Shown one piece after another: positions 9,491-33,957 of a stretch of DNA of 64,000 nt. Position 1 is the stretch's first letter. Each line of letters opens with the position of its first letter. The notes beneath the pieces were generated by a model. That model was not told where the DNA came from. It worked only from the letters and a program-made list of their open reading frames with translations, and ran no database searches. Origin of the DNA: a virus; IMG/VR virus record IMGVR_UViG_3300048625_000299, positions 170,865 through 234,864 of that record; one strand, given 5' to 3'. Both the position numbers and the translations under genes were made by a program.

Positions 9491-10166
9491 TGGCTTTGTA
9501 ATTATTGCAACTTCCAAGAGGAAGTATTTGATCTCGGCAATTAATACTGCCGAGTCAATCAAAGATTATTATCCCGAAGCATCAGTAACATTATACACAA
9601 CGCCAGACATACTTGCCGACAATGATGTCAGTATGTTCGACGAAGTGATCACTGATGGAGTGCCACGCGACCGCCGTGCAAAGCTATGGGCACTTAGTAG
9701 AACGCCATATGACACGACGGCATACTTAGATGCAGATACGGTCGTCGTGTCATATGAGATAACCGATATCTTCGATCAGCTTGGTGATAGCGATATCATC
9801 TTTACCAAAATTAGACAGTACAACTCCAACCCAAAAGGGTACCTCGAAGACCCTGAGTATATCCGACATGGTGGGGTGTTTGTGTATAATAATAAACCAG
9901 ACACACTGAAATTCATGGAGAACTGGTGGACGTTGTGGTTGACTACTAGATCGATTGAAGATTACAAACTTGCATATCCTGAGTACCCAGCACGCATGAA
10001 AGAGTGGGACCAATTCTACTTGTTCTATTTGGCTAAGCATACAAACCACAACCTCAAGTTAGGTTTCTTCGAAGATGATGCTCGCTGGAATTTCGTTAGT
10101 GGTTATTTACGCAGCGAGCTGAATGGTAAGCAACCAATCATCGAACACTATACCATTAAAGATTAA
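9456..10166 (+). CDS. Glycosyltransferase-like protein (nucleotide-sugar transferase fold)
   Basis: The protein has a GT-A type layout. A first strand FVIIATSKRKYL near residue 15 is followed by a LDADTVV motif (D92-A93-D94), the DxD signature that binds the divalent metal and nucleotide sugar. A GGVFVYNN segment and a distal EWDQFYLFYL segment follow, as in glycosyltransferase-8-like and phage nucleotide-diphospho-sugar transferases. It overlaps the previous gene by 35 bases. The start is uncertain: GTG at 9456, TTG at 9465 and GTG at 9474 are all possible. Likely substrate: a surface glycan of the host or a glycan on a virion protein; neither donor nor acceptor can be told. Confidence 0.7.
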   Translation: MNQLKKVPKPNNGFVIIATSKRKYLISAINTAESIKDYYPEASVTLYTTPDILADNDVSMFDEVITDGVPRDRRAKLWALSRTPYDTTAYLDADTVVVSYEITDIFDQLGDSDIIFTKIRQYNSNPKGYLEDPEYIRHGGVFVYNNKPDTLKFMENWWTLWLTTRSIEDYKLAYPEYPARMKEWDQFYLFYLAKHTNHNLKLGFFEDDARWNFVSGYLRSELNGKQPIIEHYTIKD

Positions 10167-10170
10167 TATT

Positions 10171-10860
10171 ATGATTTTCGCGAATAGATTACCATCCGAC
10201 CTTGTCGCTGACCTATACAAATTCAGCGACTGGTTCTTCAGTCAGCAGCTAGAGGATAGCGTCAAAATGACGCCTAAGAACCTCGATACTCAGTATGCTG
10301 TTAGTACTGAGTATCTCGAACTGATGAAATCGAGACCAGATAATGTCGGGTATCCAGAAGAGGCACATGGGGCCGACTTCAGACATGTTGGCGCATATGA
10401 TACAAATTTGTACTTCGATCGTGTGCAAGAGATCGACCGCAAACTAATGAGTTTTACTGGCAGCCACAACAACGCTCTTAAAATGTATTACCCGCCAGGT
10501 GGATATATTGGATGGCATAACAATGCCAATGCGCCTGGATATAATATCTTGTTTACATATAGCGAAACAGGCGAAGGCGACTTCCGATACATCCATCCAC
10601 AAACAGGCGAGTTGGTGATTATGCCCGATCGCAAGGGGTGGAGCTGTAAGGTTGGATATTATGATATCGTAGATGGCAACCCATTGTGGCATGCTGCATG
10701 GACAGGTTGTAATAGATTAAATTGGGCGTATATCATTCATCCTGCTCTTTGGGCAAGCTTAGCCGAAGAGTTGGAAATTGATATCGACGCTATAACAAAC
10801 ATATTCGGACGCGATCCTACAAATGATGAAGCTGCATCAAAGCTGGTTAGAAGAGGTTGA
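10171..10860 (+). CDS. 2OG-Fe(II) oxygenase-like protein
   Basis: I place the start at the ATG at 10171 (MIFANRLP), just after the upstream stop. The 229-residue product contains MYYPPGGYIGWHNNANAPGY followed by a FTYSETGEGDFRY segment and a distal LWHAAWTGCNRLNWAY segment. This order (first His, later His, then Arg after a jelly-roll strand) matches a family common in T4-like cyanophages and usually labelled 2OG-Fe(II) oxygenase. The first metal motif is H-x-N rather than H-x-D, so activity is not certain. It probably hydroxylates a protein or small molecule. The next gene starts inside its 3' end. Confidence 0.6.
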   Translation: MIFANRLPSDLVADLYKFSDWFFSQQLEDSVKMTPKNLDTQYAVSTEYLELMKSRPDNVGYPEEAHGADFRHVGAYDTNLYFDRVQEIDRKLMSFTGSHNNALKMYYPPGGYIGWHNNANAPGYNILFTYSETGEGDFRYIHPQTGELVIMPDRKGWSCKVGYYDIVDGNPLWHAAWTGCNRLNWAYIIHPALWASLAEELEIDIDAITNIFGRDPTNDEAASKLVRRG

Positions 10861-11449
10861 TGGCGATGTCGGTGTGTTCTGGTCCTCTGGGCTAGAGTCA
10901 ACGTTGTTGCTGCTCATGTGCATAGAGAAGTATGGTAAGGATAGAGTACATACCTTCACACAAAAGTTTCCACATGATGATCCCTTTGACCGAGCAGTCA
11001 AGCACTACCACTACTTTGCAGACGCACTTGCAGATGAGATGGGGCTGTGCAACCATCATACAGTAGAGGTTGGTTCGGGGGGATTGAATAGCAACGAAGT
11101 CCGAATCGATTTATACAACGCTGCTATCAAACTTGTTCCGAATATCGAGGCGATATATGTTGGGGTTAATACTACACAAGTTGGGCGTCTCATAGACCCA
11201 ACACAACGTCAAATCGTAGCGGACGCATGGGATACCGCAACCCTAATAAAAACACCTTTCATGGACATCAAAAAATACGAAGCGATTAAGATGTTTTATG
11301 AATATGGATACAGTCAGTGGATTACTAGCACGCGATCGTGTGCTAGGTCTACAGTATATCATTGCGGTAGATGCTCCAATTGTACAGAGCGGAAGATGGG
11401 GTTCGATCAGGCCGGCATACAAGACCCAACGACTTACATGATCGATTGA
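10823..11449 (+). CDS. PP-loop ATPase, QueC-like (7-cyano-7-deazaguanine synthase family)
   Basis: A P-loop of the PP-ATPase type is present as SSGLEST (residues 21-27; the family norm is SGGxDS/T). The C-terminus carries C173 and the cluster C181-x2-C184-x2-C187 in HCGRCSNCTERKMGF, which corresponds to the zinc site of QueC. QueC converts 7-carboxy-7-deazaguanine to preQ0 with ATP and ammonia; in phages this can feed deazaguanine DNA modification. No queD, queE, folE or dpdA/tgt-like partner is seen in this window, so a different ATP-dependent adenylation role is possible. The gene overlaps its upstream neighbour by 38 bases. Confidence 0.65.
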   Translation: MMKLHQSWLEEVDGDVGVFWSSGLESTLLLLMCIEKYGKDRVHTFTQKFPHDDPFDRAVKHYHYFADALADEMGLCNHHTVEVGSGGLNSNEVRIDLYNAAIKLVPNIEAIYVGVNTTQVGRLIDPTQRQIVADAWDTATLIKTPFMDIKKYEAIKMFYEYGYSQWITSTRSCARSTVYHCGRCSNCTERKMGFDQAGIQDPTTYMID

Positions 11450-12135
11450 ATCATTCTAACATTTGGGTTAAATTCATCTCCCAACCATAACCAATCTTCT
11501 TGGAATTCTGATAGATAGAGCTCATTGTATTCTACAGCATGGTCTCTATCTTTTGGTTTACGTGCAAAAGAATTACGCGGCTCAAAGTGTGATAATTTGC
11601 CACCACGTTGGCGTATAATCTCATCAACGAAGTTTTGCTCCCCATTGATTGGTGGGAGTGCCACCATTAAGTCGATAATGTAGCGCTGCATCCAATAGCG
11701 CGGCGATGTATGAAATGTTTCGGGGATGCATTTGAAGTCTCCGCCATTGAACTTATACAGCCCACCGTTGATAGTAAACCCTTCGCCCTTCCATCTAGTC
11801 CACCATCTGTATGGGGCAACCAATTCGTTAGGCGAAACGTGTTGGTTGAATATATCAGTGACATCGTCCACAAACGTCCAATCGAGATCAGACACGAAAC
11901 AAACCTGACCTTCCGGAGCCATGTTAAAGAAATCAACTTTGTGCCATTGTCGTCTCCCATCGTCATTTTCGATCGGAATCACCTCTATGTGTTTGCCAAA
12001 TTCAGACTTATCGTAAGTGGTGTAGCAGTGCAGTTGTAGCGGCAGATTTACATGATCTTTTAGCTGTCTGTAAAATCTTTCCACATGATTGGGCGTGTAG
12101 TTGGGCCCAGTGCAAACTGTATAAATCGGTATCAT
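11434..12135 (-). CDS. Glycosyltransferase-like protein
   Basis: This 233-residue protein starts with a Rossmann-like strand (IPIYTVCTGPNYTP) and has a DxD motif, D83-L84-D85, in FVSDLDWTFVD. A GEGFTINGGLYKF segment follows, typical of acceptor regions in phage GT-A enzymes. It is the last gene of a three-gene minus-strand operon and its start overlaps the methyltransferase stop by 4 bases. It converges with the QueC-like gene, overlapping 16 bases. Likely transfers a sugar to an unknown acceptor. Confidence 0.65.
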   Translation of the reverse strand: MIPIYTVCTGPNYTPNHVERFYRQLKDHVNLPLQLHCYTTYDKSEFGKHIEVIPIENDDGRRQWHKVDFFNMAPEGQVCFVSDLDWTFVDDVTDIFNQHVSPNELVAPYRWWTRWKGEGFTINGGLYKFNGGDFKCIPETFHTSPRYWMQRYIIDLMVALPPINGEQNFVDEIIRQRGGKLSHFEPRNSFARKPKDRDHAVEYNELYLSEFQEDWLWLGDEFNPNVRMIQSIM

Positions 12136-12734
12136 AACTTCTGGATTGCTACTTGCGATGAGTCAGGAATGTCCAATACCTCGATTCTATTCCAGTTGCA
12201 GTGTATGAAGGAATCTATCGCCAGTCTAGGAGATAGAGATGGATCGCCCGACTTTTCTTTTGCTGAGTGTTTAGTGTATTTCCAACGGGTTGCGTCGTCT
12301 AGTAGTATAACGCCCCCTTGCCGTATTAATTGGAAGCAACGAACAAGATCTTCAAGTACAGTTGCTGCAGTGTGATCGCCATCGATATAAATGAAGTCAA
12401 TTCCTGAACCGATTCTGTGGATCACGTCCGATGATGGGATGTTATAAAAAGTAATCTTATCTCTATGAGTGCATTGGTTCATGTTGTCCACGAAGCGATC
12501 TTTTACAATATCCAGTACTGTCTCATCAACTTCGTAGTTTCCTTTAAACGGATCGATCGCTACGTGATTGACGATCGATGGATAATTGTCTACCATCCAA
12601 AACGTAGTGCGGCCTTCGAATACGCCAATCTCCATCGTATAAGATGGGTTGATAATATGCTTGTCAAATATGTGCTTAATATTCTTGGTACTGGCTTTTG
12701 CCCAATCTACGATATAATTGTAGCTCACTTCCAA
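12132..12734 (-). CDS. Class I SAM-dependent methyltransferase (Methyltransf_24 type)
   Basis: A 200-residue protein with motif I as MEIGVFEGRTTFW (residues ~34-46) for SAM binding. The post-II/III region is FIYIDGDHTAATVLEDL (about 115-130), then GGVILLDDATRW. The IDGDH motif is characteristic of methyltransferases that act on sugars or polyketide/glycan scaffolds, and of cephalosporin hydroxylase-like relatives. It sits between two glycosyltransferase-like genes with short overlaps on both sides, so glycan O-methylation is a reasonable inference. Confidence 0.75.
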   Translation of the reverse strand: MEVSYNYIVDWAKASTKNIKHIFDKHIINPSYTMEIGVFEGRTTFWMVDNYPSIVNHVAIDPFKGNYEVDETVLDIVKDRFVDNMNQCTHRDKITFYNIPSSDVIHRIGSGIDFIYIDGDHTAATVLEDLVRCFQLIRQGGVILLDDATRWKYTKHSAKEKSGDPSLSPRLAIDSFIHCNWNRIEVLDIPDSSQVAIQKL

Positions 12735-13402
12735 TACTCCTTCACGATCGGGTCATCTAATACGTCTGTTGGCTTAGGGTGGCCATGAAATATACACACA
12801 GCGTACGATGGACGATATTTAAATTTAGCGCCGTCGCATAGATCAGCGCCACGGCGATAAGAGTAAACCTCTCCTCGAGGAATAGTAGCGACTGGCAGCT
12901 TCTCGTGCCACAGGAAGCGATCGACCCCTTTGTACGTCGCCATATGTCTTTCTGGGTCTTGCATGAAGTGCTCGTATATTGACGATGCGTCCTTCCATAT
13001 CATTATGCTGGAATTATACATCGTATTGCGTTCCATCCAATCCGAGAGAATGATTGGATCTTTCCAATAAGCCATGCATACAGTCAAGCTGTCGGAGGCT
13101 AGTTCAAATAGGTGGTCGATGTTTCCATGAATGACTACGTCTAGGTCAAACAGCATCTTAACGTCATACTGCTCTAACTTAGGATGAACAAGAATGGGAA
13201 GCTTAAACCACCACGTCTCGAAGTCATGCTTGGATTCGATTGGCAGTATGTGGATCGATTGATCGATCCCAGTAGGATCATCGGTGTAGCAATAAATAGG
13301 GGTGAGTGGATCACCCCAACGCCGAAGCATCGATGCTAGATTGTTAACATATTCGGCCGAGTATTTTTGGCCCCACTTCAGACAGACATAACAAGTTTTC
13401 AT
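12725..13402 (-). CDS. Glycosyltransferase-like protein
   Basis: The first gene of the minus-strand GT-methyltransferase-GT operon, 225 residues. It shows an N-terminal beta strand (KTCYVCLKWGQKYS), a DxD motif at D86-L87-D88 in MLFDLDVVIHGN, a YNSSIMIWK acceptor segment and a C-terminal CIFHGHPKP motif. This His-containing end is common to a group of bacterial and phage transferases in which it lines the metal site. A GATAAATA late-promoter-like octamer lies 27 bases upstream on this strand. Confidence 0.7.
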   Translation of the reverse strand: MKTCYVCLKWGQKYSAEYVNNLASMLRRWGDPLTPIYCYTDDPTGIDQSIHILPIESKHDFETWWFKLPILVHPKLEQYDVKMLFDLDVVIHGNIDHLFELASDSLTVCMAYWKDPIILSDWMERNTMYNSSIMIWKDASSIYEHFMQDPERHMATYKGVDRFLWHEKLPVATIPRGEVYSYRRGADLCDGAKFKYRPSYAVCIFHGHPKPTDVLDDPIVKEYWK

Positions 13403-13424: not shown

Positions 13425-14462
13425 ATGTATATTTATCGTGATGGAATAGAATCTTTGCACATCGAGCTTACAAATAAATGTAACGCTCGATGTCCCCAGT
13501 GCTCGAGAACGAATAATGTAGAGATTGAAAATAGCCAAGTAGAGATCACAATACAACAGTTCAAGTCTTTTTTTGATGTTGGGTTCATCCAAAAACTGAA
13601 GAAGGTTAAGTTTTGTGGGAATTTTGGCGATCCTGCGATGGCTAAAGACTGCATCGCTATACACGAATACATTACTGATTGCAATCCTAACATTAACCTA
13701 TCATTCGATACCAATGGCGGCATCCGCACGACTACGTTTTGGAAACAACTAGGTAGATTCTACATTGACAAGCCAGAGAGCCATATAATATTTCATATCG
13801 ATGGTTTGGAGGATACCAATCACATATACAGAGCAGATGTCAGCTTCTCCAATGTAATGAAGAACGCAAGGGCGGCGATTTCGACTGGTGCGAATGTGGT
13901 TTGGGCATTTATTCCATTCATGCACAATGAGCATCAAGTAGAGGAGGCTGAGCAAATATCAAAGCAAATGGGATTCACTACGTTTGCTGTTAAGATAAGC
14001 TCGAGGTTTGAACATAAGCTCAAACCATTTCCATACCGCGATTCTAAAACAGGAATCACCAAGCACATATATCCAGCAACCTCTTCTGAGTTCAACGTGA
14101 ATGCATTATTAGCCAACCTTGATGAGCCGGTATGTGCTGCAGAAAAAAGGAAAGAAGTATACGTAGATGCTAGAGGCAGAGTCCACCCATGCTGTTGGTA
14201 TGGGTCGGGGTATGAGACTAATCAAGATTTTAGACAAGCCGTCGATGCTCAACATAATCCTCACCTGAACGCCACGCCAATATGCGATGCTACTAATACA
14301 CAACTATTCCACAACATCAAACAAGCATGGACGGTAGCAGACAACATACTAGCCAAACCTTGCCACAAGAAGTGTAGTGGTAGAGTGATGAATTTCTGGA
14401 TGATAGATGGCGAAATTACACCACAGAAGAACTACGCTGAATGGCTAAGGGAAGACCTATGA
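13425..14462 (+). CDS. Radical SAM protein with C-terminal cysteine-rich (SPASM-like) region
   Basis: The canonical CxxxCxxC motif is present as C19-NAR-C23-PQ-C26 for the SAM-binding [4Fe-4S] cluster, followed by KFCGNFGDP (equivalent to the GGEP motif) and LSFDTNGG. The C-terminal third has further cysteines in VCAAEKRK, VHPCCWYG and PCHKKCSG, suggesting an auxiliary iron-sulfur cluster. The GAGG ribosome binding site lies 6 bases before the ATG. Related proteins occur in T4-like aquatic phages without a known substrate. The gene is transcribed divergently from the glycosyltransferase operon and couples to the next gene. Confidence 0.8.
   Translation: MYIYRDGIESLHIELTNKCNARCPQCSRTNNVEIENSQVEITIQQFKSFFDVGFIQKLKKVKFCGNFGDPAMAKDCIAIHEYITDCNPNINLSFDTNGGIRTTTFWKQLGRFYIDKPESHIIFHIDGLEDTNHIYRADVSFSNVMKNARAAISTGANVVWAFIPFMHNEHQVEEAEQISKQMGFTTFAVKISSRFEHKLKPFPYRDSKTGITKHIYPATSSEFNVNALLANLDEPVCAAEKRKEVYVDARGRVHPCCWYGSGYETNQDFRQAVDAQHNPHLNATPICDATNTQLFHNIKQAWTVADNILAKPCHKKCSGRVMNFWMIDGEITPQKNYAEWLREDL
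13430..13437 (-). promoter_or_regulatory. Late-promoter-like octamer (GATAAATA), glycosyltransferase operon
   Basis: Read on the minus strand, GATAAATA lies 27 bases before the ATG at 13402. It sits inside the first codons of the divergent radical SAM gene. Confidence 0.5.
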
Positions 14463-15046
14463 TATTCACAACCGATGTTGGTAATATAAATGTCACAATT
14501 GCTGACGTTATCACGGATGATTTTCAGTTCTTGATGGATGGTGCAGCGGCAGAGCGGGCCATTGATTATGCACGACTCGAGTTAGGAAAGAAGTATGAAT
14601 ATAGCGTCGTACTTTCATACAATAGCATACCATATGGTTTCTTCTTGATGTGTAATGGAGGCAGATATGCACCCAACGTGCTACGCGTATACACCAAGCT
14701 GTATACTATACCTCAGTTCAGATCCGCAGCTAATATAGATAAATTCCTGCTGCCAGGAGACACTGCTGGCAGAGTGATGTATCAATCGCATAGTATAATC
14801 GCCAACTTCGTTGAGGATATACTACCGACAACAGAAATCAAACCATACGATTTATACTTCTACTCGCGCGCTCCTGGAGACACTCTGATAGTATCGCTGA
14901 TGAATAAATTCGCAAGAGTCAAATGGACTGCCGTCGACGACATAGTGTTCCTTACAGGGCGGAAAGAATCAGATCCGCACTGTTGGAAGCATATTGTATA
15001 TAAAGGCGACTTGGCGGCATTCACTCAACCATCAAGACCTATTTAA
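14459..15046 (+). CDS. Hypothetical protein coupled to the radical SAM gene
   Basis: The ATG at 14459 overlaps the radical SAM stop (ATGA), giving a 195-residue product starting MIFTTDVGNINVT. It has mixed alpha/beta content, with Y-rich segments (YEYSVVLSYNSIPYGFF, VLRVYTKLYTIPQF) and no cysteine cluster. The central part loosely recalls acyl- or acetyltransferase folds, but I see no diagnostic GNAT motif. The coupling suggests it works with the radical SAM protein. It converges with the desaturase gene, overlapping 15 bases. Confidence 0.6.
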   Translation: MIFTTDVGNINVTIADVITDDFQFLMDGAAAERAIDYARLELGKKYEYSVVLSYNSIPYGFFLMCNGGRYAPNVLRVYTKLYTIPQFRSAANIDKFLLPGDTAGRVMYQSHSIIANFVEDILPTTEIKPYDLYFYSRAPGDTLIVSLMNKFARVKWTAVDDIVFLTGRKESDPHCWKHIVYKGDLAAFTQPSRPI

Positions 15047-15730
15047 TATCCGAACGATCGCAGCACCCAAATCCCATTTGCCGAATACTGGATCACGTGG
15101 ATGTTGGTGGTGGTGGTCGTGGTAAGTTTCGCCAGCTAGTAGCCAAGCGAGATATGGCCTGCTGATTGCTTTGCCGTCCTTATGTCCGAGGTAGTTCACT
15201 GAAGCCTGTCCTAAGAACCCATATGTATTGATAATGGTCCACGATATAGGACCAAAGAGTATGCTCATCACTACAAACCCAAGTATTGCGACCGGTAGGT
15301 AGTACTTCATTTGAGCTTGGTACAGTGGATTGCGTAAATTTGTTTTATTGGCGTATGCCATATTAAAATCATAATATGCAATCATCAAGTTAGCCCAAAG
15401 CCCCTTATGTGGACCGTGTGGATCTCTGTCGGTGTCGACGTATCTGTGGTGCTTATTGTGTGTCGCTGCCCACGACAGTACTTGCGTAAACGCAAAAGCC
15501 GCACCGAGCACCAAAAACATTACTTCTGCCCATCTAGGACATTCCCAAGCATAGTGCGTGACGTACCTGTGGTAATATGCCGACACTACGCCAGCCACAA
15601 TTACCATACCTGCTATGAACCAAAGAATATACACCCATTGTGGGTCAGTTATCAGTGTGTATAGTGTAAAGGCCGTACTAGCGAAGAATATTGTTTGTTG
15701 GATTATCTTTTGCATCCATGTTGGAATCAT
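15032..15730 (-). CDS. Fatty acid desaturase, acyl-CoA/delta-9 type
   Basis: This 232-residue membrane protein has all three histidine boxes of the SCD/DesC-type desaturase family: HRYVTH (54-59), HNKHH (91-95) and HDHHH inside ETYHDHHHQH (204-208). The additional NYLGH (~179-183) matches the asparagine/histidine di-iron ligand site. Hydrophobic segments lie at ~14-50, 70-88 and 144-170. It would insert a double bond in a fatty acyl chain using a di-iron centre and O2. It is the last gene of the ketosynthase operon and its start overlaps the previous stop (ATGA). The protein looks intact and catalytically complete, though shorter than most bacterial homologues. Confidence 0.9.
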   Translation of the reverse strand: MIPTWMQKIIQQTIFFASTAFTLYTLITDPQWVYILWFIAGMVIVAGVVSAYYHRYVTHYAWECPRWAEVMFLVLGAAFAFTQVLSWAATHNKHHRYVDTDRDPHGPHKGLWANLMIAYYDFNMAYANKTNLRNPLYQAQMKYYLPVAILGFVVMSILFGPISWTIINTYGFLGQASVNYLGHKDGKAISRPYLAWLLAGETYHDHHHQHPRDPVFGKWDLGAAIVRILNRS

Positions 15731-16536
15731 GGGGTCACCTCATACGTCAGATCTATGTTGAATTCTTTTAGGCTTTCTTTTGCCTTCCAGTAGTTATCTC
15801 CCTCTACTGCAGACATCATCGCATCTTTATCGGTCCACATGAATTCATATATGCGACTGGTTGGCGTATTGCTGCCCTTGCACCCATACACCTTTTTAGT
15901 TTTGTAAAACGACTCATTCATAAATGGCATCATAAAGTTTTGCTCGATTGTGGACCGAATGTCTTGAATGCCGTCGAACATACCAATCATATCGCTGTTG
16001 GTATAATCATACTCGACTCGTAGGCCATATGTTTGCTTTGGTGACGTATCGTCACATGCATACTCAGTCATAATAAAATGTGTGCGAGGCATTACGCCAC
16101 CGTTGACTGCTGTGTGATGAGCCTCAGCTGAATTGATCTGGCGGATACGACCGTCCGCTGGTAGATGATAACCTCGTTGCTTATCATAATCATAATAAAA
16201 GCTGCCACGATTCTCGATTACAGACAAGTGGTATTTGTTATCAGGGTCATTGTGGTGACGCAAACAGAATCCAGCTGGCAGAATAATGAACACCGATCTG
16301 TTCATTTTGAATGGCATGTCGGCAATCACACGTTCGAATATTGTATCCTTGAGGACGGGATTGATAATCGGTCTATGGAAATATGTGTAGTCTTCAAACT
16401 CTGGATCTTCTGCGAAGCATGCCTGCAATATACCATTGCGCGCAACGTTGGGGAGGATCTTCGTCTCCCAATCATGTTTGACTTCTGCTGGATCGTATAG
16501 GAAATCACCAAACAACTGTACTGATTCATGCATCAT
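15727..16536 (-). CDS. 2OG-Fe(II) dioxygenase, aspartyl/asparaginyl beta-hydroxylase (AspH/LpxO)-like
   Basis: A 269-residue product with the AspH-type core: H95-N96-D97 in CLRHHNDPDN (first metal motif), KYHLSVIEN, then ADGRIRQINSAEAHHT with a second histidine (~140/141) in a H-x-x-x-N context, and PRTHFIM with R151. The fold of this family (PF05118-like) includes LpxO, which hydroxylates lipid A acyl chains, and enzymes that hydroxylate protein Asp/Asn. The start is ATG-ATG, overlapping the small upstream gene. Placement between a ketosynthase and a desaturase makes a lipid substrate attractive, but that is inference. Confidence 0.75.
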   Translation of the reverse strand: MMHESVQLFGDFLYDPAEVKHDWETKILPNVARNGILQACFAEDPEFEDYTYFHRPIINPVLKDTIFERVIADMPFKMNRSVFIILPAGFCLRHHNDPDNKYHLSVIENRGSFYYDYDKQRGYHLPADGRIRQINSAEAHHTAVNGGVMPRTHFIMTEYACDDTSPKQTYGLRVEYDYTNSDMIGMFDGIQDIRSTIEQNFMMPFMNESFYKTKKVYGCKGSNTPTSRIYEFMWTDKDAMMSAVEGDNYWKAKESLKEFNIDLTYEVTP

Positions 16537-16730
16537 ACTCTTGTCCTTACTGATGAATTGTGTGCCGATGTTGGTAGGGAGAAGTCGTATGCTGCGAATT
16601 TGTTTTGATTGATTTGCTTGATCAAATCTTCATATGCTAGTGTGGCTGTCATCCCAATTCCCATATACACTCTCTCATCGACACGTAGCAGTGCCATGGT
16701 TTTTCCAGCTTGTGTTGAATACCTTATCAC
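16533..16730 (-). CDS. Small protein of unknown function in the ketosynthase operon
   Basis: The frame gives 65 residues from a GTG at 16730, one base after the ketosynthase stop, or 54 residues from an ATG at 16697 with a TGGA-like Shine-Dalgarno. Its stop overlaps the next start. It contains YMGIGMTATLAYEDLIKQ and no DSL phosphopantetheine motif, so it is not a recognisable acyl carrier protein. Tight spacing on both sides supports it as a real gene. No function is recognised. Confidence 0.5.
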   Translation of the reverse strand: MIRYSTQAGKTMALLRVDERVYMGIGMTATLAYEDLIKQINQNKFAAYDFSLPTSAHNSSVRTRV

Positions 16731-16731
16731 A

Positions 16732-17856
16732 TCAACCTCTCTCTATAATCATACTTGCACACTTGCCGCCAAATCCAAATGAATTATTCAACGTCTTAGT
16801 AATTGCGCGTTTTGTTGGATGCATGACGACTCCTGCGTGCTTAGTGACCACACATCCTTGTGTATGTGGTACGATTCCACGGTTCATGGATATGATGCTG
16901 TAGATTGTCTCTAATACACCAGCGGCCGCAAACGTGTGTCCTATCTTACCTTTGTTCGAATACACAGGCAGCAACCCACAAACATCGATGATCGCATCAT
17001 ACTCTACTTCATCGCCACCCGGTGTAGAAGTTCCATGTGCATTGACTACGTCCGGACTGCCGCCGTATTTGATAGCTTGCTCCATTGCGGTCCTAGCACC
17101 CTCGCCACTAGGCAATGTGCGGTTAAATGCATCCGATGCGTGCCCAGCCGGATACAAATACCCATAAATCGTAGCACCACGGGCCTTGGCTTTTTCCTCA
17201 GATTCTAAAATAACGATACCAGCACCCTCTCCCATTACGAATCCGTTTCTAGACACATCAAATGGCATAGATTTATTTGACAATGCTTTGAATGATGAGA
17301 ATAGAGACATATCGATGTAGTTGACTCCAGCATCCGAACCACCAGCAACGACGTAATCATACTGGTCCACATATCGCATCGCGAAATCTAGTGTGACTAA
17401 TCCCGTCGCGCACGCGGAATAGATGCTGGTGTTGATGCCTCTAAACCCGTAGTATTGAGATACGAAGCCGCATAAAGCATCGACGGTGCTATTGATTCCC
17501 TTTTTAGGGCTAATCCTGTCCTTTACGATCATGTCGTATGTGTATTCATTGCCACCAGTCAACGATGATATGAATACGCCTACATTGTCTGATTTGGGAA
17601 CATTTGCATGTTTGAGTGCTCGGTCCACTGCATGCATTCCATATCGCATAGTTCTAGGTAGGAATCTCTGATCAAACCCTTCTGGAAAAACCTCAGATCC
17701 TTGCTCTGGAAAAAGCGACGTTTGGATATCGGTATTTGATACCAGGACGGAAGTATCGCGATAATATGAGTTGGAGTCGACCATTCTGTCGAAATTTTGC
17801 TCAGCATCATTCCCTAATGCATCGATTAATCCATATCCAGTCACGCAAACTCTCAT
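16732..17856 (-). CDS. Beta-ketoacyl-ACP synthase, FabF/KAS II-like
   Basis: This 374-residue protein carries the full condensing-enzyme signature. The nucleophile cysteine lies in YSACATG (C149). PFDVSRNGFVMGEGAG is the typical KAS II loop. The first catalytic histidine is in VNAHGTSTPGGD (H274), and the lysine and second histidine are in NKGKIGHTFAAAG (K302, H307). The glycine-rich end is NNSFGFGGKCAS. It is shorter than bacterial FabF (~413) but lacks no motif. It would extend acyl-ACP with malonyl-ACP in the host fatty acid pathway. I chose the ATG at 17856 because GGAG ends 5 bases before it; a GTG at 17859 is less well placed. First gene of a four-gene minus-strand operon. Confidence 0.9.
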   Translation of the reverse strand: MRVCVTGYGLIDALGNDAEQNFDRMVDSNSYYRDTSVLVSNTDIQTSLFPEQGSEVFPEGFDQRFLPRTMRYGMHAVDRALKHANVPKSDNVGVFISSLTGGNEYTYDMIVKDRISPKKGINSTVDALCGFVSQYYGFRGINTSIYSACATGLVTLDFAMRYVDQYDYVVAGGSDAGVNYIDMSLFSSFKALSNKSMPFDVSRNGFVMGEGAGIVILESEEKAKARGATIYGYLYPAGHASDAFNRTLPSGEGARTAMEQAIKYGGSPDVVNAHGTSTPGGDEVEYDAIIDVCGLLPVYSNKGKIGHTFAAAGVLETIYSIISMNRGIVPHTQGCVVTKHAGVVMHPTKRAITKTLNNSFGFGGKCASMIIERG

Positions 17857-17903: not shown

Positions 17904-17911
17904 TATAAATA
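17904..17911 (+). promoter_or_regulatory. T4-type late promoter (TATAAATA)
   Basis: A perfect TATAAATA octamer, the -10 element of T4 late promoters, lies 30 bases before the ATG at 17942 in the short divergent region between the ketosynthase operon and the tail fibre operon. Confidence 0.75.
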
Positions 17912-17941: not shown

Positions 17942-18271
17942 ATGGCAATAAAAGCAAATTTGATCATTGATCAAGGGACCACATACTCGACGACTATCGA
18001 CATCATCGATGATAATGATATGCCTATCGATTTGACTGGGTACACAGGGTCTGCTCAGTTAAGAAAACACTATTCATCGTCAAACTCAACCTCATTTGCA
18101 GTATCAGTAGATGCCTCAAGTGGCATCCTTGCGTTGAGTTTGACAGCCGCACAGACTGGGGCTTTGGCTGCTGGTCGTTATGTATATGATGTAGAGCTGA
18201 CTAACGCATCGAATGTCGTTTCTCGGATTGTGGAAGGAATAGTCACGGTTACCCCACAAGTTACGAGATAA
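17942..18271 (+). CDS. Virion structural protein, BppU-like N-terminal domain type
   Basis: This 109-residue all-beta protein begins with NLIIDQGTTYSTTIDI, followed by PIDLTGYTGSAQLRK and ends GRYVYDVELTNAS...VEGIVTVTP. This pattern is common in T4-like cyanophage structural genes and in the N-terminal baseplate-binding domain of fibre proteins. It is the first gene after a strong late promoter and lies 3 bases before the giant fibre gene, so it likely serves as an adapter between the baseplate and that fibre. Confidence 0.7.
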   Translation: MAIKANLIIDQGTTYSTTIDIIDDNDMPIDLTGYTGSAQLRKHYSSSNSTSFAVSVDASSGILALSLTAAQTGALAAGRYVYDVELTNASNVVSRIVEGIVTVTPQVTR

Positions 18272-23988: not shown

Positions 23989-26900
23989 ATGGCTGGAACA
24001 AAAGTACAAATCAAACGCAGTAGCGTGGCAGGACGCGTCCCAACAGCATCGGATATCGATGTTGGACAGTTAGCCGTCAACTTTACAGACAAGAGGTTCT
24101 TTACCAAGGACGGATCCAATACGGTTATCGATGTCTTTGGTCAGAGCCTCAACACGACAGCCAACGTCTCGTTTAGGGATGGTGCCTTCGCCAATATTAC
24201 AGCGACCACTCTTGTGGGCAACTTAGAGTGGAGCTATATTACATCGAAACCAGATCTCCAAATCAATATCACTGGAGATGCTACTGGTTCCAATACATTT
24301 GTTGATTTGGCCAATGGTTCCATCAACGTCACTCTCGCCAACACCACCGTAACGCCAGGCACGTATGGAAATAGCTCCGCTATCCCTGTGCTCACAATCG
24401 ACAGCAAGGGTCGCGTTACGGTTGCGACTACAAACACCGTCGCTGGCATCACTGGCTTTTCATATGCATCGACCAACAATACGCTGTCCATTACGGCAGG
24501 CGATGGATCGACATATAAGGCCACAGTCAACACAGTCAATACTTTCGCGGTGTCAAACACACTGCTCGTTACTGGCGTTGGTACGTTTTCTAATGATGTC
24601 ATTGTGTCTGGCAATCTTATCGTTTCTGGCACAACGACATACATCAACACGACAGAGTTAAATATTGGCGATAATATCATATCGCTCAATGCCGATCTAG
24701 TAGGCACACCATCTGAAAATGCTGGCGTCAGCGTCAATCGTGGGACGTCTGCAAACGTATCACTATTATGGGACGAACCATCGGATGCGTGGACTTTCAC
24801 GAATGATGGGTCGACCTATTTAAAGATTGCAAGTAATACCGATGTAGATGCGGCATACTCTAACGCAGCTTCATACGCCGATACAAAAGCGGCGGTGGCA
24901 TACTCTAACGCAACAGTATATGCCGATACGAAGGCAGCTACAGCATACTCCAACGCCGTATCTTATGCGGATATAAAGGCAGCGGCCGCATATACGAACG
25001 CGGCGGCGTACGCAGATACAAAGGCGGCCGCAGCATATTCAAATGCGGTTTCGTATACGGACACCTCAGTTGCTACAACATATGCAAATGCGACATCATA
25101 TGCTGATACAAAGGCAGCTACTGCATATTCGAATGCCGTAAGCCACGCCGACACAGCAGCAGATACTGCGTACTCGAATGCTGTGTTGACCGCATCAGCC
25201 GACGCATCTGGTAAAGCAGCTACAGCATATACGAACGCAACGTCATATGCTGACGTAGTAGCGGCCACGTCTTATTCGAACGCAGTATCGACCGCATCGA
25301 CGGACGCATCCAGCAAGGCTGCCATCGCATACTCGAACGCTGTATCTACAGCAGCGACGGATGCTACCAATAAAGCAGATACAGCATATTCGAATGCTAT
25401 AAGTTATGCTGACGTAGTTGCAACTGCATCTTATTCGAATGCGACCTCGTATGCCGATACGAAAGCAGCAACTGCATATTCTAATGCAGCATCATATGCC
25501 GATACCAAGGCCGGTGGTGCGTATGCGAACGCAATTTTATACGCAGCATCAAACACCTACGTCAATGACCAACTAGGCACTAAAGCTGACGTAAGCAGTC
25601 CGTCGATCACCAGTCCAACAATTACATTGGGCGCATCGATCGATGGTAACGTCGTTCTTACGAGCACGCGTCTATCTGTAAACGGTAGCGTTGGTGATAT
25701 AGGCAACGTTCTAATGTCTGGTGGAGCTGGTAGCAACGCATACTGGTCAACGATTTCTCTTCCAGACCTCAACACAACATATGCGCTATCGACCAGCGCA
25801 AACGCATCGTCGGCCAATTTGTCGCTGGCTGGTTCCGATTCAACAACCAACAACGTCAAATTTGTTGGTGCAGGAAGTGTCGTCGTCGCATCAAATGGAT
25901 CGACCGTTACTGTTACTGGGGGCGGCGGGAATGGTTTCGGTACGGTGGCGGTCGTTGGACAATCTAGCGTCGTTGCGAATCAGTCGAATGCTACATTAAC
26001 ACTTGTTGCTGGTAGCAACATGACGATTACTACCAATGCTAACACTGGAACAGTCACGCTGGCTTCGTCCGGTGGTGGCGGGGGCGGTGGTGGATCGACG
26101 ACAACTGCCGGTGGCAATGCGTTTATCGCGGGCAGAGACAACTTTACCGCGAATGGTTCGCAGACGGTATTCACGCTATCACAATATGCTACTGCCAACA
26201 GTATATTGGTGCTCGTTGAGGGATTGGTACAATTCCATACAGAAGACTATGATGTTTCTGGAACATCGCTGACGTTCTCTACTGCACCGGCCAATAATGA
26301 AGTGATCGAAATCCTCCATCTAGCTGGCGCGTCGACATATCACTTCATGCAATATGGTGCGATCGACTCGTTCACTGGTAATGGAAGTACATCGGCGTTC
26401 ACGTTATCAAGATCGTCCAATACAAGCCTAGCGACCGTATACATCGATGGTTTGCTGCAGTCACCATCAACTGACTTCACAATTAACGCAACTACGTTGA
26501 CGTTTGCGGCCGCGCCTCTATCAGGCGAAGCGGTGTTGGTATACCACAATGAGAGCGCTGTAAGCTCGATACCGTCAACTTCGATTGCAAGCACCGACGT
26601 CTTTGTCGGTAACGGCACCACCACTAATTTTACACTGACTGGTACCGCCAATAGCAGCACCAGTATGGTGACGATTAACGGCCTTGTGCAAGGATATGCT
26701 GTCGACTATACCGTAACCGGAACCACACTTACATTTGTAGATGCGCCTCCAACTGGCTCCACTATACAGGCGATGAGGTTGGCAGGGTCAGTTGGATCTG
26801 CGTTCAGCTCTATAATGGTGGGTTCGACGACGCTTACTGCCGCATCGGCAGCGAGCTTACTGAACATTACTAACGGTTCGGGCGTCGCGCTGTCGACTAC

Positions 26901-27144
26901 AAGCAATAATACCATTAACGTCGGGCTCACGAATATCGCTAAACAGAGTTTAGCTGGCAATGGTACTACGACGGTGTTTACCCTGACATACCCATCAACG
27001 TCAGATAATATATTAGTGCACGTCAATGGCATATACTTCCACCCCGACGAAGACTATACTGTATCGAATACGACGCTAACGTTCGTGGACGCCCCGTCGG
27101 CTGCAGCCGAAATCCGCATTCGATTTATGCGTGCTCCGGTGTGA
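23989..27144 (+). CDS. Long tail fibre protein with YxNAxSYADTKA repeats and GNGS-type domains
   Basis: This is a 1051-residue protein. The head (KVQIKRSSVAGRVPTASDIDVGQLAVN) is a common fibre N-terminus in T4-like phages. The TTYINTTELNIGDNII module lies at about 24610-24800. Residues ~285-520 are about twenty units of YSNAxSYADTKAA type, a predicted helical or coiled-coil shaft. The C-terminal third holds four copies of a beta domain (FTANGSQTVFTLSQY, FTGNGSTSAFTLSR, FVGNGTTTNFTLTG, LAGNGTTTVFTLTY), each followed by DYxVxxTTLTFxxAP. The same domain opens several genes in the three downstream cassettes. Confidence 0.85.
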   Translation: MAGTKVQIKRSSVAGRVPTASDIDVGQLAVNFTDKRFFTKDGSNTVIDVFGQSLNTTANVSFRDGAFANITATTLVGNLEWSYITSKPDLQINITGDATGSNTFVDLANGSINVTLANTTVTPGTYGNSSAIPVLTIDSKGRVTVATTNTVAGITGFSYASTNNTLSITAGDGSTYKATVNTVNTFAVSNTLLVTGVGTFSNDVIVSGNLIVSGTTTYINTTELNIGDNIISLNADLVGTPSENAGVSVNRGTSANVSLLWDEPSDAWTFTNDGSTYLKIASNTDVDAAYSNAASYADTKAAVAYSNATVYADTKAATAYSNAVSYADIKAAAAYTNAAAYADTKAAAAYSNAVSYTDTSVATTYANATSYADTKAATAYSNAVSHADTAADTAYSNAVLTASADASGKAATAYTNATSYADVVAATSYSNAVSTASTDASSKAAIAYSNAVSTAATDATNKADTAYSNAISYADVVATASYSNATSYADTKAATAYSNAASYADTKAGGAYANAILYAASNTYVNDQLGTKADVSSPSITSPTITLGASIDGNVVLTSTRLSVNGSVGDIGNVLMSGGAGSNAYWSTISLPDLNTTYALSTSANASSANLSLAGSDSTTNNVKFVGAGSVVVASNGSTVTVTGGGGNGFGTVAVVGQSSVVANQSNATLTLVAGSNMTITTNANTGTVTLASSGGGGGGGGSTTTAGGNAFIAGRDNFTANGSQTVFTLSQYATANSILVLVEGLVQFHTEDYDVSGTSLTFSTAPANNEVIEILHLAGASTYHFMQYGAIDSFTGNGSTSAFTLSRSSNTSLATVYIDGLLQSPSTDFTINATTLTFAAAPLSGEAVLVYHNESAVSSIPSTSIASTDVFVGNGTTTNFTLTGTANSSTSMVTINGLVQGYAVDYTVTGTTLTFVDAPPTGSTIQAMRLAGSVGSAFSSIMVGSTTLTAASAASLLNITNGSGVALSTTSNNTINVGLTNIAKQSLAGNGTTTVFTLTYPSTSDNILVHVNGIYFHPDEDYTVSNTTLTFVDAPSAAAEIRIRFMRAPV
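24840..25560 (+). repeat. Tandem 36-base-like repeat coding YSNAxSYADTKA
   Basis: About twenty degenerate units of roughly 36 bases encode alternating Y-(S/T)-N-A and (Y/S)-A-D-(T/V) motifs. Third positions vary strongly, so the array is kept at the protein level. It probably forms a long rod. Confidence 0.8.
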
Positions 27145-27147
27145 TAT

Positions 27148-27155
27148 AATAAATA
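27148..27155 (+). promoter_or_regulatory. Late-promoter-like octamer (AATAAATA)
   Basis: AATAAATA within TATAATAAATA sits 33 bases before the ATG at 27189, in the 44-base gap after the previous fibre gene. Confidence 0.5.
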
Positions 27156-27188
27156 CTTCAAAAATAATTTTTAGAATTCCAAAGTACA

Positions 27189-28106
27189 ATGTCAAAAGCA
27201 TCACGACTTTCTGTTTTTATCACGACTGCGAACACAGCAGCGGTAGCTAGCACGTCGAGTGGTGTGTTCGCGGGCTCGGTCAGCGTATCAAATACGCTCA
27301 CTGCCAGTGACGTGACGGCCAATGGTAACCTAACAGTCTCGGGTACATCCACGTTCACAGGACTAATTACAGGCAATATTACGAGTGCAAATAATGCAGA
27401 CTATTTGGACGGCCAACATGGTTCGTATTATGCCGTCAATACCGCCCCAGGCGTAGCATATGCTAATGCTGTGTCATATGCCAATAGTACATTCACCAAA
27501 CTAACAGACGTTTATGTTCGTTCTGGAGCAGTTGGTAGTGTAGCAGCAGGGTGGTTGATCGACTCGTTCTACAACGGAGCTGCTACAACTACCCCGCACA
27601 TCTATATGTCTCATGGTAGTGGGTATGGCATGCACATTAATACGTACAATGCCAATGCGAGCTTGTATGCTTTGCAATTACATAATAACACCAAGGAATT
27701 GCTTGGTGTGTATAATGATGGCCACGCAGCACTTGGCGGCGATTTCACTGCAACAGGCAACATCACAGCATATTATTCCGACGCGCGTCTGAAGAATTTT
27801 GAAGGCAAGATAGACAACGCTCTTGGCCGGGTTCACAAACTCAACGGATACTATTACAAAGGCAATGCTGTTGCTGGCGCATTGGGGTATGATACAGAAA
27901 AGCTACAAGTCGGCGTATCCGCTCAAGAAGCACAAGACGCGTTGCCTGAGGTTGTTGCTCCAGCACCGATCGATAATCAATACCTGACGGTCCACTACGA
28001 TAAGTTTGCTCCGCTATTGATCGAAGCAATCAAAGAACTAGACGACAAGTATCAAACATATATCGGTAAATTGGAAGCTAGGATAGCGCAGCTGGAAGGG
28101 AAGTAA
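27189..28106 (+). CDS. Tail fibre/spike tip with S74 intramolecular chaperone (endosialidase type)
   Basis: The 305-residue protein has a short repeat shaft (residues 1-100), a knob, and from residue ~190 a complete S74-type C-terminus: YYSDARLKNFEGKIDNAL with the catalytic Ser197 and Lys202, then KLNGYYYKGN, VGVSAQEAQDALPEVV, YDKFAPLLIEAIKEL and a C-terminal coiled coil. S74 domains trimerise the fibre and then cleave themselves off before the serine, so the mature tip should end near residue 196. Lies between the long fibre and the glycine-rich adhesin. Confidence 0.9.
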   Translation: MSKASRLSVFITTANTAAVASTSSGVFAGSVSVSNTLTASDVTANGNLTVSGTSTFTGLITGNITSANNADYLDGQHGSYYAVNTAPGVAYANAVSYANSTFTKLTDVYVRSGAVGSVAAGWLIDSFYNGAATTTPHIYMSHGSGYGMHINTYNANASLYALQLHNNTKELLGVYNDGHAALGGDFTATGNITAYYSDARLKNFEGKIDNALGRVHKLNGYYYKGNAVAGALGYDTEKLQVGVSAQEAQDALPEVVAPAPIDNQYLTVHYDKFAPLLIEAIKELDDKYQTYIGKLEARIAQLEGK

Positions 28107-28109
28107 TAA

Positions 28110-28652
28110 GTGGCTTTACCATCCTCCGGGTCGATTTCATTTTCGCAAATTAATACCGAGTTGGGTCGGAGTTCTACCGCCCAATTGAGCATGAACGATA
28201 GCGGTCTGCGGACGCTGTTTGGTATTTCGTCGGGCCAAATATCGATGAATAGTGGTTATGGTAAGGCTAATGCTTTCGTCCATACAGCTACGATTGCTGG
28301 TAATATAGCTAACTATGATCAGCGCGCCGCCGCAGTTGCGGCTGGTTGGGACCAAGTCAAACCGTTGAAATCGACGGTTACAATCGACGCTGGTGTGTAT
28401 GTTTATTCGGGCGGCACTGGATCTTATGCATACTCTACTGGATCTACCTTCCCAGCTGGCAGTCAATTGTACTTGATAAATAACGGTACAATTATCGGTT
28501 GTGGTGGTAATGGTGGTAGTGGTGGTGACCAGGCTGTTGGTAATGGTGGCGCTGGCGGCGGCCCTGCCTTATATGCAGGCTATGCTATCAGCGTGACGAA
28601 CAACGGCACTATCGCAGGTGGTGGCGGCGGCGGAGGCGGCGGCGGCAGTTAA
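28110..28652 (+). CDS. Glycine-rich tail adhesin, N-terminal half (split gene)
   Basis: The 180-residue product starts at GTG, 9 bases after GGAAGGG. It opens with a recognisable tail-protein head (MALPSSGSISFSQINTELG, then LFGISSGQISMNSGYGKAN). A middle domain contains YDQRAAAVAAGWDQVKP and STVTIDAGVYVYSGG, followed by LINNGTIIGCGGNGG and SVTNNGTIAGG plus ten further glycines and a serine. Intact homologues I recall continue through a long polyglycine domain and finish with a GNxNITWxxxGTR end. That missing end is encoded at 30930-31337. The stop here is TAA-TAA inside the glycine tract region, so the gene looks broken by an insertion. Confidence 0.75.
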   Translation: MALPSSGSISFSQINTELGRSSTAQLSMNDSGLRTLFGISSGQISMNSGYGKANAFVHTATIAGNIANYDQRAAAVAAGWDQVKPLKSTVTIDAGVYVYSGGTGSYAYSTGSTFPAGSQLYLINNGTIIGCGGNGGSGGDQAVGNGGAGGGPALYAGYAISVTNNGTIAGGGGGGGGGGS

Positions 28653-28670
28653 TAATATTTTGAGGTTGTG

Positions 28671-29525
28671 ATGGTTATATTTCGTTATTCTAAACTTGAT
28701 TTCTTTTTGGTGTTGTATGCGGTTGCTGCTTGTATACTTCCATTCATCATATCTCAATATAGCGTGTGGGTGTGGTTGCTAGCGGCCCCACTGCAGGCAA
28801 TTTTCAACGTGGTGGTTATGAACACTTGTATGCATCACCACGTACATACGCCTTTATTTCGATACCAGTTCCTCAATAGGGCATATGAGCTACTTACTAC
28901 AGTGGCCGTTGGTATTCCATTTCAGTCATGGAAATGGTTTCATCTTACACACCACAAATACAACAACGACGCTAAGAAGAATGGTATCGTAAACGATCCA
29001 GTGACATTTTATCGATTCAGTGAACCAGGCGTTCGCGAGAATGTGTGGATGTATTGTGTGTATGGCGTGTGGAGAGATCTGACTGGTATTACAGCAAACG
29101 ATGCAAGCTGCACAAATCGCATACAAATAAATCATCCAGACCGCCTGCGTACAGAGGTGTGGGCGTTCGGTTTGTGGTTCCTAGCGCTGTTTGTATGCAA
29201 CGTGTGGTATGGGGCGTTTTATATTGCAGTATACTTACTGAGCTTGGTTCTCAATCAGGCCAACAGCTATGGTGAACATTACTTAGCAACTGATCCCGCG
29301 AATTTCAGATCCGACTCGGTAGGAAGCTACTCTTGGTGGTTCAATACATTTTGTTTCAACTCTGGTTATCACCAAGAGCACCATGTACGCCCGGGCGTAC
29401 ATTGGACTAAGTTACCAGAACTTACATTCAGTTTGCCTAGCAACAGACATACCATAAACGGGATGTATATGTTCAATATTCCATGGTATAATGATCTAAA
29501 GAGTTTGATTCGAGGCAATAAATGA
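28671..29525 (+). CDS. Fatty acid desaturase (PF00487-like), second in window
   Basis: This 284-residue membrane protein starts at the ATG at 28671, 5 bases after GAGG (GTG at 28668 is too close). Histidine clusters are HHHVH (55-59), HLTHH (91-95) and YHQEHH (H234, H237, H238), followed by VHWTKLP, matching the HxxxH/HxxHH/HxxHH pattern of membrane di-iron desaturases and hydroxylases. Hydrophobic segments lie at residues ~10-50 and 165-195. It belongs to a different subfamily from the delta-9-type enzyme at 15032. Acyl substrate and regiospecificity are unknown; a hydroxylase or carotenoid-type activity is possible. Its stop overlaps the start of the radical SAM gene. Confidence 0.85.
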   Translation: MVIFRYSKLDFFLVLYAVAACILPFIISQYSVWVWLLAAPLQAIFNVVVMNTCMHHHVHTPLFRYQFLNRAYELLTTVAVGIPFQSWKWFHLTHHKYNNDAKKNGIVNDPVTFYRFSEPGVRENVWMYCVYGVWRDLTGITANDASCTNRIQINHPDRLRTEVWAFGLWFLALFVCNVWYGAFYIAVYLLSLVLNQANSYGEHYLATDPANFRSDSVGSYSWWFNTFCFNSGYHQEHHVRPGVHWTKLPELTFSLPSNRHTINGMYMFNIPWYNDLKSLIRGNK

Positions 29526-30916
29526 GTTACAGTAAATTTGAGACGGATGGTGGTATCGTATTCTACTACGATAACCAGACAAATAACATATTAGAGGCTG
29601 ATGGCACACCGTTGTTCGTCTCTACGAGGGATGAGCAATATGAAGAGTTTGCGGCAGCGAACTACTCAACACGAAAGAAGAATAGAGCCCCTACAGCAAT
29701 ACGTTTGTTGATGGGCCATGCGTGTAACTTTTCGTGTACATATTGCATGCAGAAGGATATTGGTAACCCAGATGAATTACCAAAGAATAAGGGCCTTCAG
29801 TCGTTATTCGATTCGGTATCGTCGAATTTAGATCTCTCTAACCTACAACGATTGGAGTTATGGGGCGGCGAGCCTTTTTTATATTGGAATGATATGGTCG
29901 AGATTATGTCGTTCTTTGATTCCAAGAAGATGACATTCGGCATCACGACTAATGGGTCAGCGTTGTCGTTGAAACATGCTGAGTTTTTCAGCCAACTGAA
30001 CGCCCATGTGATTGTCACCATTTCCCATGATGCTGAAAAGCAACAAGCGTTGAGAGGTGAAGATCCGCTGTCTCGTTCGCGCGTTATACAGACGCTCAAG
30101 CAATTTGATCGTGTGGATAATGTCACGTATGGGTTCCTATGTTCAATCACGAATACTAACTTTGACCTGTTTGAGATTAACGACTTCTTCCGTGGAAAGA
30201 TTATTGAACATGGATTGAATACTAACAGCTTATCGTTTTCGCTCGGTAGAACTTATAATGAGAATGAGGGATACAATCCTTCGTCGGCTCTCGGTTGCAA
30301 CATCATCGAGGACATACCACAAGAAAGTAGCTTTACGCACGTCATTAGTGGCGACAACTTAGAAAAGTTTCGTACTATACTATCAGAGTTTCTCGAACAA
30401 CATTATGTACAATTAACGAACTCTATTGTGGATGGGCAACCGACGATCTTTGGTAAGTCTGCATCTGAAACGCCGTTACTATTATGTGACATATACGAAT
30501 CAATATTACCATACTCAGTGGTTGAGTATGCGCGCAAAATAATTGGTGGTGAGCAAATTTTAGAGAGTTCTAATTGCGGTGCTGATATGGCCGATGTATT
30601 GTCGATCGATATCGACGGGTCGATCCGCACCTGTCCTCATGCTGGCAAGGACCATATTATGGGCAATATAACCAGCATTGCATCATCGCGCATCATCCCT
30701 ATTACGCTCGGCCGAAAGACGACACATTGTACTGATTGTGTTGTGAATAAGCTGTGTCGATCATCGTGTCCAATAAATCTACCAACCGAAACCTTTCTTA
30801 CAAACTGCCGCGTAGAAAAGATCTGGTATGGGGAAATTCAAAAAGCGGCGTTACGTCTAATTATGGACGATTGTGTGAAGATGGTGTCAACTGGCATCCA
30901 AAACATAAATAGCTGA
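29522..30916 (+). CDS. Radical SAM/SPASM domain protein
   Basis: This 464-residue protein has the radical SAM motif C68-NFS-C72-TY-C75, a WGGEPFLYW motif (SAM amino group) and FGITTNGS. The SPASM region has CGADMADVLSIDIDGSIR, TCPHAGKDHIMGNI, then CTDCVVNKLCRSSCP and a final NCRVEK cysteine, enough for two auxiliary [4Fe-4S] clusters. SPASM proteins modify peptides or proteins (sulfatase maturases, RiPP maturases such as sactipeptide and cyclophane enzymes). It is coupled by ATGA to the desaturase, and a glycine-rich protein is encoded immediately on each side, either of which could be its substrate. This is inference. Confidence 0.88.
   Translation: MSYSKFETDGGIVFYYDNQTNNILEADGTPLFVSTRDEQYEEFAAANYSTRKKNRAPTAIRLLMGHACNFSCTYCMQKDIGNPDELPKNKGLQSLFDSVSSNLDLSNLQRLELWGGEPFLYWNDMVEIMSFFDSKKMTFGITTNGSALSLKHAEFFSQLNAHVIVTISHDAEKQQALRGEDPLSRSRVIQTLKQFDRVDNVTYGFLCSITNTNFDLFEINDFFRGKIIEHGLNTNSLSFSLGRTYNENEGYNPSSALGCNIIEDIPQESSFTHVISGDNLEKFRTILSEFLEQHYVQLTNSIVDGQPTIFGKSASETPLLLCDIYESILPYSVVEYARKIIGGEQILESSNCGADMADVLSIDIDGSIRTCPHAGKDHIMGNITSIASSRIIPITLGRKTTHCTDCVVNKLCRSSCPINLPTETFLTNCRVEKIWYGEIQKAALRLIMDDCVKMVSTGIQNINS
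30903..30910 (+). promoter_or_regulatory. Late-promoter-like octamer (CATAAATA)
   Basis: CATAAATA overlaps the last codons of the radical SAM gene and lies 19 bases before the GTG at 30930. With the GGAGG that follows, it could give the downstream adhesin half its own late expression. Confidence 0.45.
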
Positions 30917-30929
30917 TTGGAGGTCCAAC

Positions 30930-33266: not shown

Positions 33267-33267
33267 A

Positions 33268-33914: not shown

Positions 33915-33935
33915 GCGAGGTGGATTGTTTTAGTG

Positions 33936-33943: not shown

Positions 33944-33957
33944 ATTCGAGGCATGTT

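Follow-up and report, generated by a model that had tools for sequence, protein, structure and literature searches.

What would a T4-like phage do with a ketosynthase, an oxygenase and a fatty acid desaturase set in one operon? The question is raised by a 64,000-nucleotide stretch of DNA (hereafter the window), the last 64 kb of the 234,864-base virus record IMGVR_UViG_3300048625_000299. The window carries T4-type genes for tail sheath, terminase and tail fibres and, on its minus strand, four genes that encode, in this order, a FabF-type beta-ketoacyl synthase (KS), a small protein, a 2-oxoglutarate (2OG)-Fe(II) oxygenase and a membrane fatty acid desaturase. With moderate confidence, we read these genes as an acyl-chain-modifying operon that would use the host acyl carrier protein (ACP) and whose product would probably be an altered membrane or envelope lipid. 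For the KS family as a whole, acyl-chain modification is well supported by the sequence comparisons given below.

Organization and recurrence of the operon

The initial annotation had described four tightly packed minus-strand genes, and the open reading frames (ORFs) were found where it had placed them, with junctions of +1, −4 and −4 bases as read from the sequence. The KS gene (16732..17856, minus strand) encodes 374 aa from its likely start, ATG 17856, which has GGAG upstream; GTG 17859 is also possible. One base separates its stop codon (16734–16732) from GTG 16730 of the small-protein gene (16533..16730, minus strand), which shares the four bases ATGA (16536–16533) with the oxygenase gene (15727..16536, minus strand), and a second four-base overlap (15730–15727) joins the latter to the desaturase gene (15032..15730, minus strand). 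The operon shows no sign of recent import, since its G+C content equals that of the record (44.6% vs. 43.8–46.0%). Promoter and terminator scans gave nothing above chance level.

A search for the same gene order elsewhere found it in two further phage lineages, with KSs 79% and 53–55% identical to that of the window. Compared stretches carry locus labels (L002, L087, L170 and so on) in this analysis; the viral status of their contigs is the assignment of IMG/VR, and their gene calls are mechanical. In IMGVR_UViG_3300012933_000388 the operon recurs together with its flanks, at 69–87% identity for most genes and 73–87% for the operon proteins, and in 3300022746_000020 and 3300022744_000040 it recurs with 53–55% (KS), 49–50% (oxygenase) and 40% (desaturase) identity. 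Because the four-gene order returns in further contigs at 73–87% and 40–55% identity, it is not due to chance. Comparison of the window with L002 gave a dN/dS (ratio of nonsynonymous to synonymous substitution rates) of 0.09 for the small protein, while saturated synonymous sites in the other three genes allow no estimate. The combination had been thought new as a phage operon, and the open-licence papers searched gave no description of a KS–desaturase or KS–hydroxylase pair.

A divergent ketosynthase family with an intact active site

The window KS matches PF00109 (97 bits) and PF02801 (71.5 bits), both above cut-off, and its best NCBIfam profile is FabF, at 241.4 bits and under the TIGR03150 equivalog cut-off of 493.75. 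The catalytic Cys-His-His and Lys that the initial annotation had called intact (Cys150, His275, His308 and Lys303, counted from GTG 17859) are invariant in 55/55 viral relatives, except one that is truncated at the Cys. Gate residues of E. coli FabF are kept in the phage family as well (Phe400; Phe202 in 31/32; Thr270 in 30/32), and the Ile108 position is Thr, Ala, Ser or Cys in most phage KSs. In a tree with a small bacterial reference set of 11 sequences, a branch with 98/90 support has the bacterial KSs on one side and all phage KSs on the other, so that the window KS fails to group with bacterial FabF. Searches of the 235 kb record, possibly incomplete, revealed no ACP (PF00550), short-chain dehydrogenase/reductase (PF00106) or MaoC (PF01575) gene; the KS would thus need host partners.

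Two alignment-based scans of viral contigs confirmed 55 KS relatives in the first round and 109 in the second; the locus comparisons cover no more than 80 of them. Among isolated phages no near relative of the window KS was found. Most of the INPHARED records with KS matches that were inspected proved to be unverified clones or pieces of bacterial chromosome (e.g., fabB beside mnmC), and these matches were taken as bacterial references. Only the match in the siphophage ctpbd312 (MW202545) is a very divergent KS-like gene inside a phage structural module (L006 5779–6723, about 315 aa). It has a very long tree branch, and a phage KS clade that excludes it has weak support (67/57). A motif search of about 85,000 bacterial and archaeal genomes, which can miss divergent copies, returned one phage-type KS, on a contig of a Deinococcales metagenome-assembled genome (L140 2606–3865; JAAFJQ010000230.1), where it lies between genes that resemble bacterial housekeeping genes (superoxide dismutase-like, YggS-like and DivIVA-like). 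The same assembly also has an ordinary FabF, and its phage-type copy is apparently either a bacterial capture of a phage gene or part of a mis-binned contig.

Coupling of ketosynthases to desaturases and hydroxylases

The window desaturase (232 aa) scores 50.1 bits against PF00487 (cut-off 29.7) and has all three full histidine boxes, as first described (H54xxxxH59, H91xxHH95 and H204xxHH208); they are also kept in the pelagiphage Mosig. It matches the stearoyl-CoA desaturases 4zyo/4ymk weakly, and tblastn at E 0.01 aligned it with none of the annotated cyanophages.

The neighbourhood comparison covered 31 non-redundant KS loci. In 13 of them a desaturase is encoded on the KS strand by one of the first three genes downstream, and whenever the desaturase gene follows directly it overlaps the KS gene or shares its last base in every case seen. 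Desaturases account for 15 of 89 genes near the KS vs. 5 of 203 farther away (Fisher p = 2.7e-5, for loci that are not independent). Eleven KS-linked desaturases form one clade of the desaturase tree (100/99). The desaturases of L188 and L195, likewise joined to a KS, belong to a separate lineage outside that clade, and the tree thus indicates that the KS–desaturase association arose at least twice.

Hydroxylases recur beside the KS in a similar manner. The next gene in five other KS loci encodes a different type of 2OG oxygenase with weak similarity to PF13640. In L171 two Asp_Arg_Hydrox proteins come after the KS, with OlsC and LpxO as their best NCBIfam matches, and L170 brings together a KS, the small protein, the oxygenase, a MaoC-type dehydratase, an LpxO/OlsC-like protein and a desaturase. 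The Asp_Arg_Hydrox matches in these two loci (E 3e-8 to 1e-10) are far under the equivalog cut-offs. LpxO and OlsC are acyl-chain hydroxylases (acyl 2-hydroxylases), and the neighbours in L170 and L171 would therefore fit acyl chemistry.

The position of these genes in the phage genome varies. The window, L002, L087, L092 and L169 have a KS next to tail-fibre genes, and in other lineages the KS–desaturase pair is found in replication regions, beside thyX-like, sliding clamp and clamp-loader-like genes. Such variation favours an action on the infected cell over one on the virion.

The oxygenase and its small-protein partner

The initial annotation had placed the window oxygenase (269 aa) in the family that includes LpxO, an assignment that the searches did not bear out. 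The protein has no Pfam or NCBIfam match and none to PF05118 or NF033391 (LpxO) even at E 0.1, and a search of the whole record gave no PF05118 either. Its motif H95xD97...H141...R151 is invariant, and when five relatives were combined into a profile, Cpz10 was the sole significant match (3e-22). The AlphaFold model (pLDDT, the predicted confidence score, 75.6), a double-stranded beta-helix, likewise has Cpz10 as its best fold (E 1.8e-9, TM-score 0.73 on target), followed by proline hydroxylases and, more weakly, AspH; it also carries an uncharacterised C-terminal alpha/beta domain (about residues 165–269). Cpz10 is the caprazamycin beta-hydroxylase, which acts on an amino-acid moiety (PDB 7v4f/7v4m; PMC9814697). 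Since sequence profile and predicted fold agree on Cpz10, the window oxygenase is best classed as a putative AspH-superfamily enzyme that is not LpxO-like in sequence. Placement by profile searches in a protein- or sugar-specific clade had been named in advance as a refuting result, and by that standard the match to Cpz10 weakens acyl-chain hydroxylation as the role of the window gene.

Window-type oxygenases travel with the small protein, which had been described as 54–65 residues long and indeed has 65 aa from GTG 16730, or 54 from an internal ATG. It is conserved in four lineages, always between the KS and a window-type oxygenase, and a protein-alignment scan matched only the loci already known. 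The model is confident for a beta-beta-beta-alpha domain (residues 1–42) and predicts a disordered C-terminal tail. It is this tail that is the most conserved portion, HNS[SA][VI][RK]TR[VA], while the folded part is variable; in the window it ends HNSSVRTRV, with H57, N58, S59, T63 and R64 invariant. Fold searches returned double-stranded RNA-binding-domain-like folds at E 0.06 or worse, which is not significant, and the small protein was rejected as an ACP since the record has no PF00550 match. From sequence and model, the conserved tail could be a substrate of the Cpz10-like hydroxylase or a docking tail.

Proposed function and alternatives

We propose that the KS condenses acyl with malonyl groups, both supplied by the host ACP, and that host enzymes would finish the reduction and dehydration cycle. 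The membrane desaturase would then add a double bond to the chain, or to the lipid that receives it, and most likely the outcome would be a changed lipid of the membrane or envelope, to the benefit of infection. Some KS loci may carry the 2OG oxygenase together with the small protein as a sub-module, in which the oxygenase would hydroxylate either the acyl product or an amino-acid or peptide partner such as the tail of the small protein. Condensing activity, use of host ACP, a lipid target and a benefit to the phage are what we infer for the operon from its gene content and residues. The initial annotation had viewed elongation, hydroxylation and desaturation of an acyl chain as one coherent set of steps; elongation with desaturation has gained from the recurring KS–desaturase pair, and LpxO/OlsC-like and MaoC-type neighbours occur elsewhere, but the hydroxylation step loses ground in the window, where the hydroxylase is outside the LpxO clade.

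Several observations weigh against an acyl-modifying role. The window KS lacks FabF Lys65 and Lys69, which together with Arg127 we take to be ACP-docking residues, and has Asp at the Arg127 position. The window oxygenase is closest to an amino-acid-type hydroxylase. In a large group of KS loci (e.g., L094, L112 and L125) the stretch covered holds no lipid enzyme gene, and KS function hence does not require such partners. In this KS-only group (the L093–L130 set), some loci have a gene for a GDSL-like hydrolase a few genes downstream (e.g., L102 9873–10289; PF13472 at 28.1 bits, under the Pfam cut-off).

The oxygenase and the small protein are also the ground for a peptide or amino-acid pathway, in which the tail of the small protein would be hydroxylated, the KS and desaturase would supply or alter an attached acyl group, and the product would be a modified (lipo)peptide. 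The confinement of the small protein to the place between the KS and the window-type oxygenase in four lineages fits this idea, as does a tail that is invariant at H, N, S, T and R and predicted to be disordered next to a variable folded part; the nearest relatives of the oxygenase (Cpz10, proline hydroxylases and AspH) act on amino-acid moieties (PMC9814697). However, the operon shows no obvious gene for a peptidase, transporter or ligase, most KS–desaturase loci are without the small protein, and a short conserved tail can equally be a docking peptide, so we consider such a pathway unlikely. Its more specific form, an acylated, hydroxylated peptide with the small protein as carrier, the HNSSVRTR tail as modification site and the acyl part shaped by KS and desaturase, is distinctly less probable; if true, it would be a phage-borne natural-product-like pathway and not simple membrane remodelling. 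We judge it similarly improbable that the operon makes an acyl group for the tail fibre or for a surface glycan built by neighbouring transferases. In the window, L002 and L087 the operon is indeed flanked by a tail-fibre assembly gene on one side and by glycosyltransferase and radical SAM genes on the other, the KS of L092 and L169 adjoins the same kind of tail gene, and the matching site of L071 is taken up by a different cassette, which includes a desaturase gene as well as glycosyltransferase-like ones. Elsewhere, though, the KS–desaturase pair sits in replication regions, and the tail location is not tied to function. The least probable of these explanations is that the KS has left fatty acid synthesis, for example for decarboxylation, acyl transfer or a block of host fatty acid synthesis by ACP binding, with the desaturases as separate membrane-fluidity genes. 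The many KS genes that stand alone, the changed Ile108 position and ACP-patch residues, and scores far under the FabF equivalog cut-off are consistent with this, but all catalytic and gating residues are kept, and coupling with desaturases in operons arose at least twice.

An acyl-chain-modifying operon thus remains the reading that we prefer, and the gene sets of the KS family suggest that phages redirect host fatty-acid chemistry with genes of their own. The coupling of KS to desaturase and hydroxylase genes suggests that several T4-like phage lineages rewrite the acyl chains of their hosts in a coordinated way. With only two to four small genes, phage use of host lipids becomes directly testable by expression, and the compact KS–desaturase pair is a target for enzymology.

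Genomic context of the window operon

The operon occupies a tail-fibre cassette site marked by a divergent tail-fibre assembly gene (17942..18271, plus strand; phrog_1084/3304). An TATAAATA box at 17904–17911 faces this gene, not the KS, likewise in L087, and boxes of the TATAAATA type are no commoner than chance. On the other side, a convergent gene (14441..15046, plus strand) encodes a 201-aa product without a match in the phage collection or in NCBIfam; it is kept at this site in L002 and L087, and an ORF resembling it, of a separate similarity cluster, follows the KS in L092, L129 and L169. The same cassette includes a radical SAM protein gene (13425..14462, plus strand) and glycosyltransferase-like, methyltransferase and glycosyltransferase-like genes (11434..13402, minus strand). 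A QueC-like PP-loop protein gene and a 2OG oxygenase-like gene lie in the same variable region (10823–11449 and 10123–10860), and the KS of L092 is also flanked by QueC-like and radical SAM genes. The cassette DNA gave no distant match in annotated phages.

The nearest match of the terminase is that of cyanophage S-SSM7 (53.5% identity), which suggested a cyanobacterial host, but no psbA/psbD-type gene was found and this host was not adopted. The record has 40 tRNA genes within 13 kb (~24,900–37,650; L132 5122–17841), covering most amino acids, and a permuted tmRNA gene at ~149,850–150,280 (L138 11252–11683; RF04321, 146 bits; RF01850 betaproteobacterial tmRNA, 144 bits) with the tag ANDEAFLMAA. 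The phage-encoded tmRNA hints at a betaproteobacterial host or ancestry.

Comparison with known systems

Single lipid genes are already known in phages. Cyanophages are reported to carry desaturases (Roitman et al. 2018, as cited by PMC8224337 and by PMC11480375), and so are Arctic brine viruses (PMC7300359). The window desaturase resembles these viral enzymes as a membrane protein with three histidine boxes and a weak match to 4ZYO, and differs from them in its place in a KS operon and in the separate clade formed by KS-linked desaturases. In Pelagibacter phage Mosig EXVC030M, an Asp_Arg_Hydrox gene lies directly ahead of a desaturase beside tail-fibre genes; that desaturase is of another clade, and instead of a KS the cluster has aminotransferase, TauD-like, flavin reductase, peroxiredoxin and other genes. 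Clusters of this pelagiphage type near tail fibres recur in L004 (6698–13785) and in dozens of IMG/VR loci among L010–L077, with desaturase, Asp_Arg_Hydrox, aminotransferase, TauD-like dioxygenase, methylase, flavin reductase, peroxiredoxin and N-acetyltransferase genes.

By both profile and fold, Cpz10 is the closest solved relative of the window oxygenase, which is distinguished by its extra C-terminal domain of ~100 residues and its phage operon context. Likeness to LpxO and OlsC belongs to the KS neighbours in L170 and L171, the window oxygenase matching neither.

The phage KS shares with FabF/KAS II the ketoacyl-synthase fold, the Cys-His-Lys-His residues and the Phe gate, but it is ~40 residues shorter, ~28–35% identical in tblastn alignments with bacterial enzymes, and encoded outside any fab operon. 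Prophages of Rhodobacteraceae carry fabG-acpP-fabF, and fabF reads occur in viromes (PMC8224337, PMC10653327). Those prophage genes keep the bacterial fab order, whereas the phage genes described here constitute a divergent KS family, present in more than 100 uncultured viral contigs and repeatedly coupled, often through overlapping genes, to oxygen-using enzymes, namely desaturases and 2OG hydroxylases.

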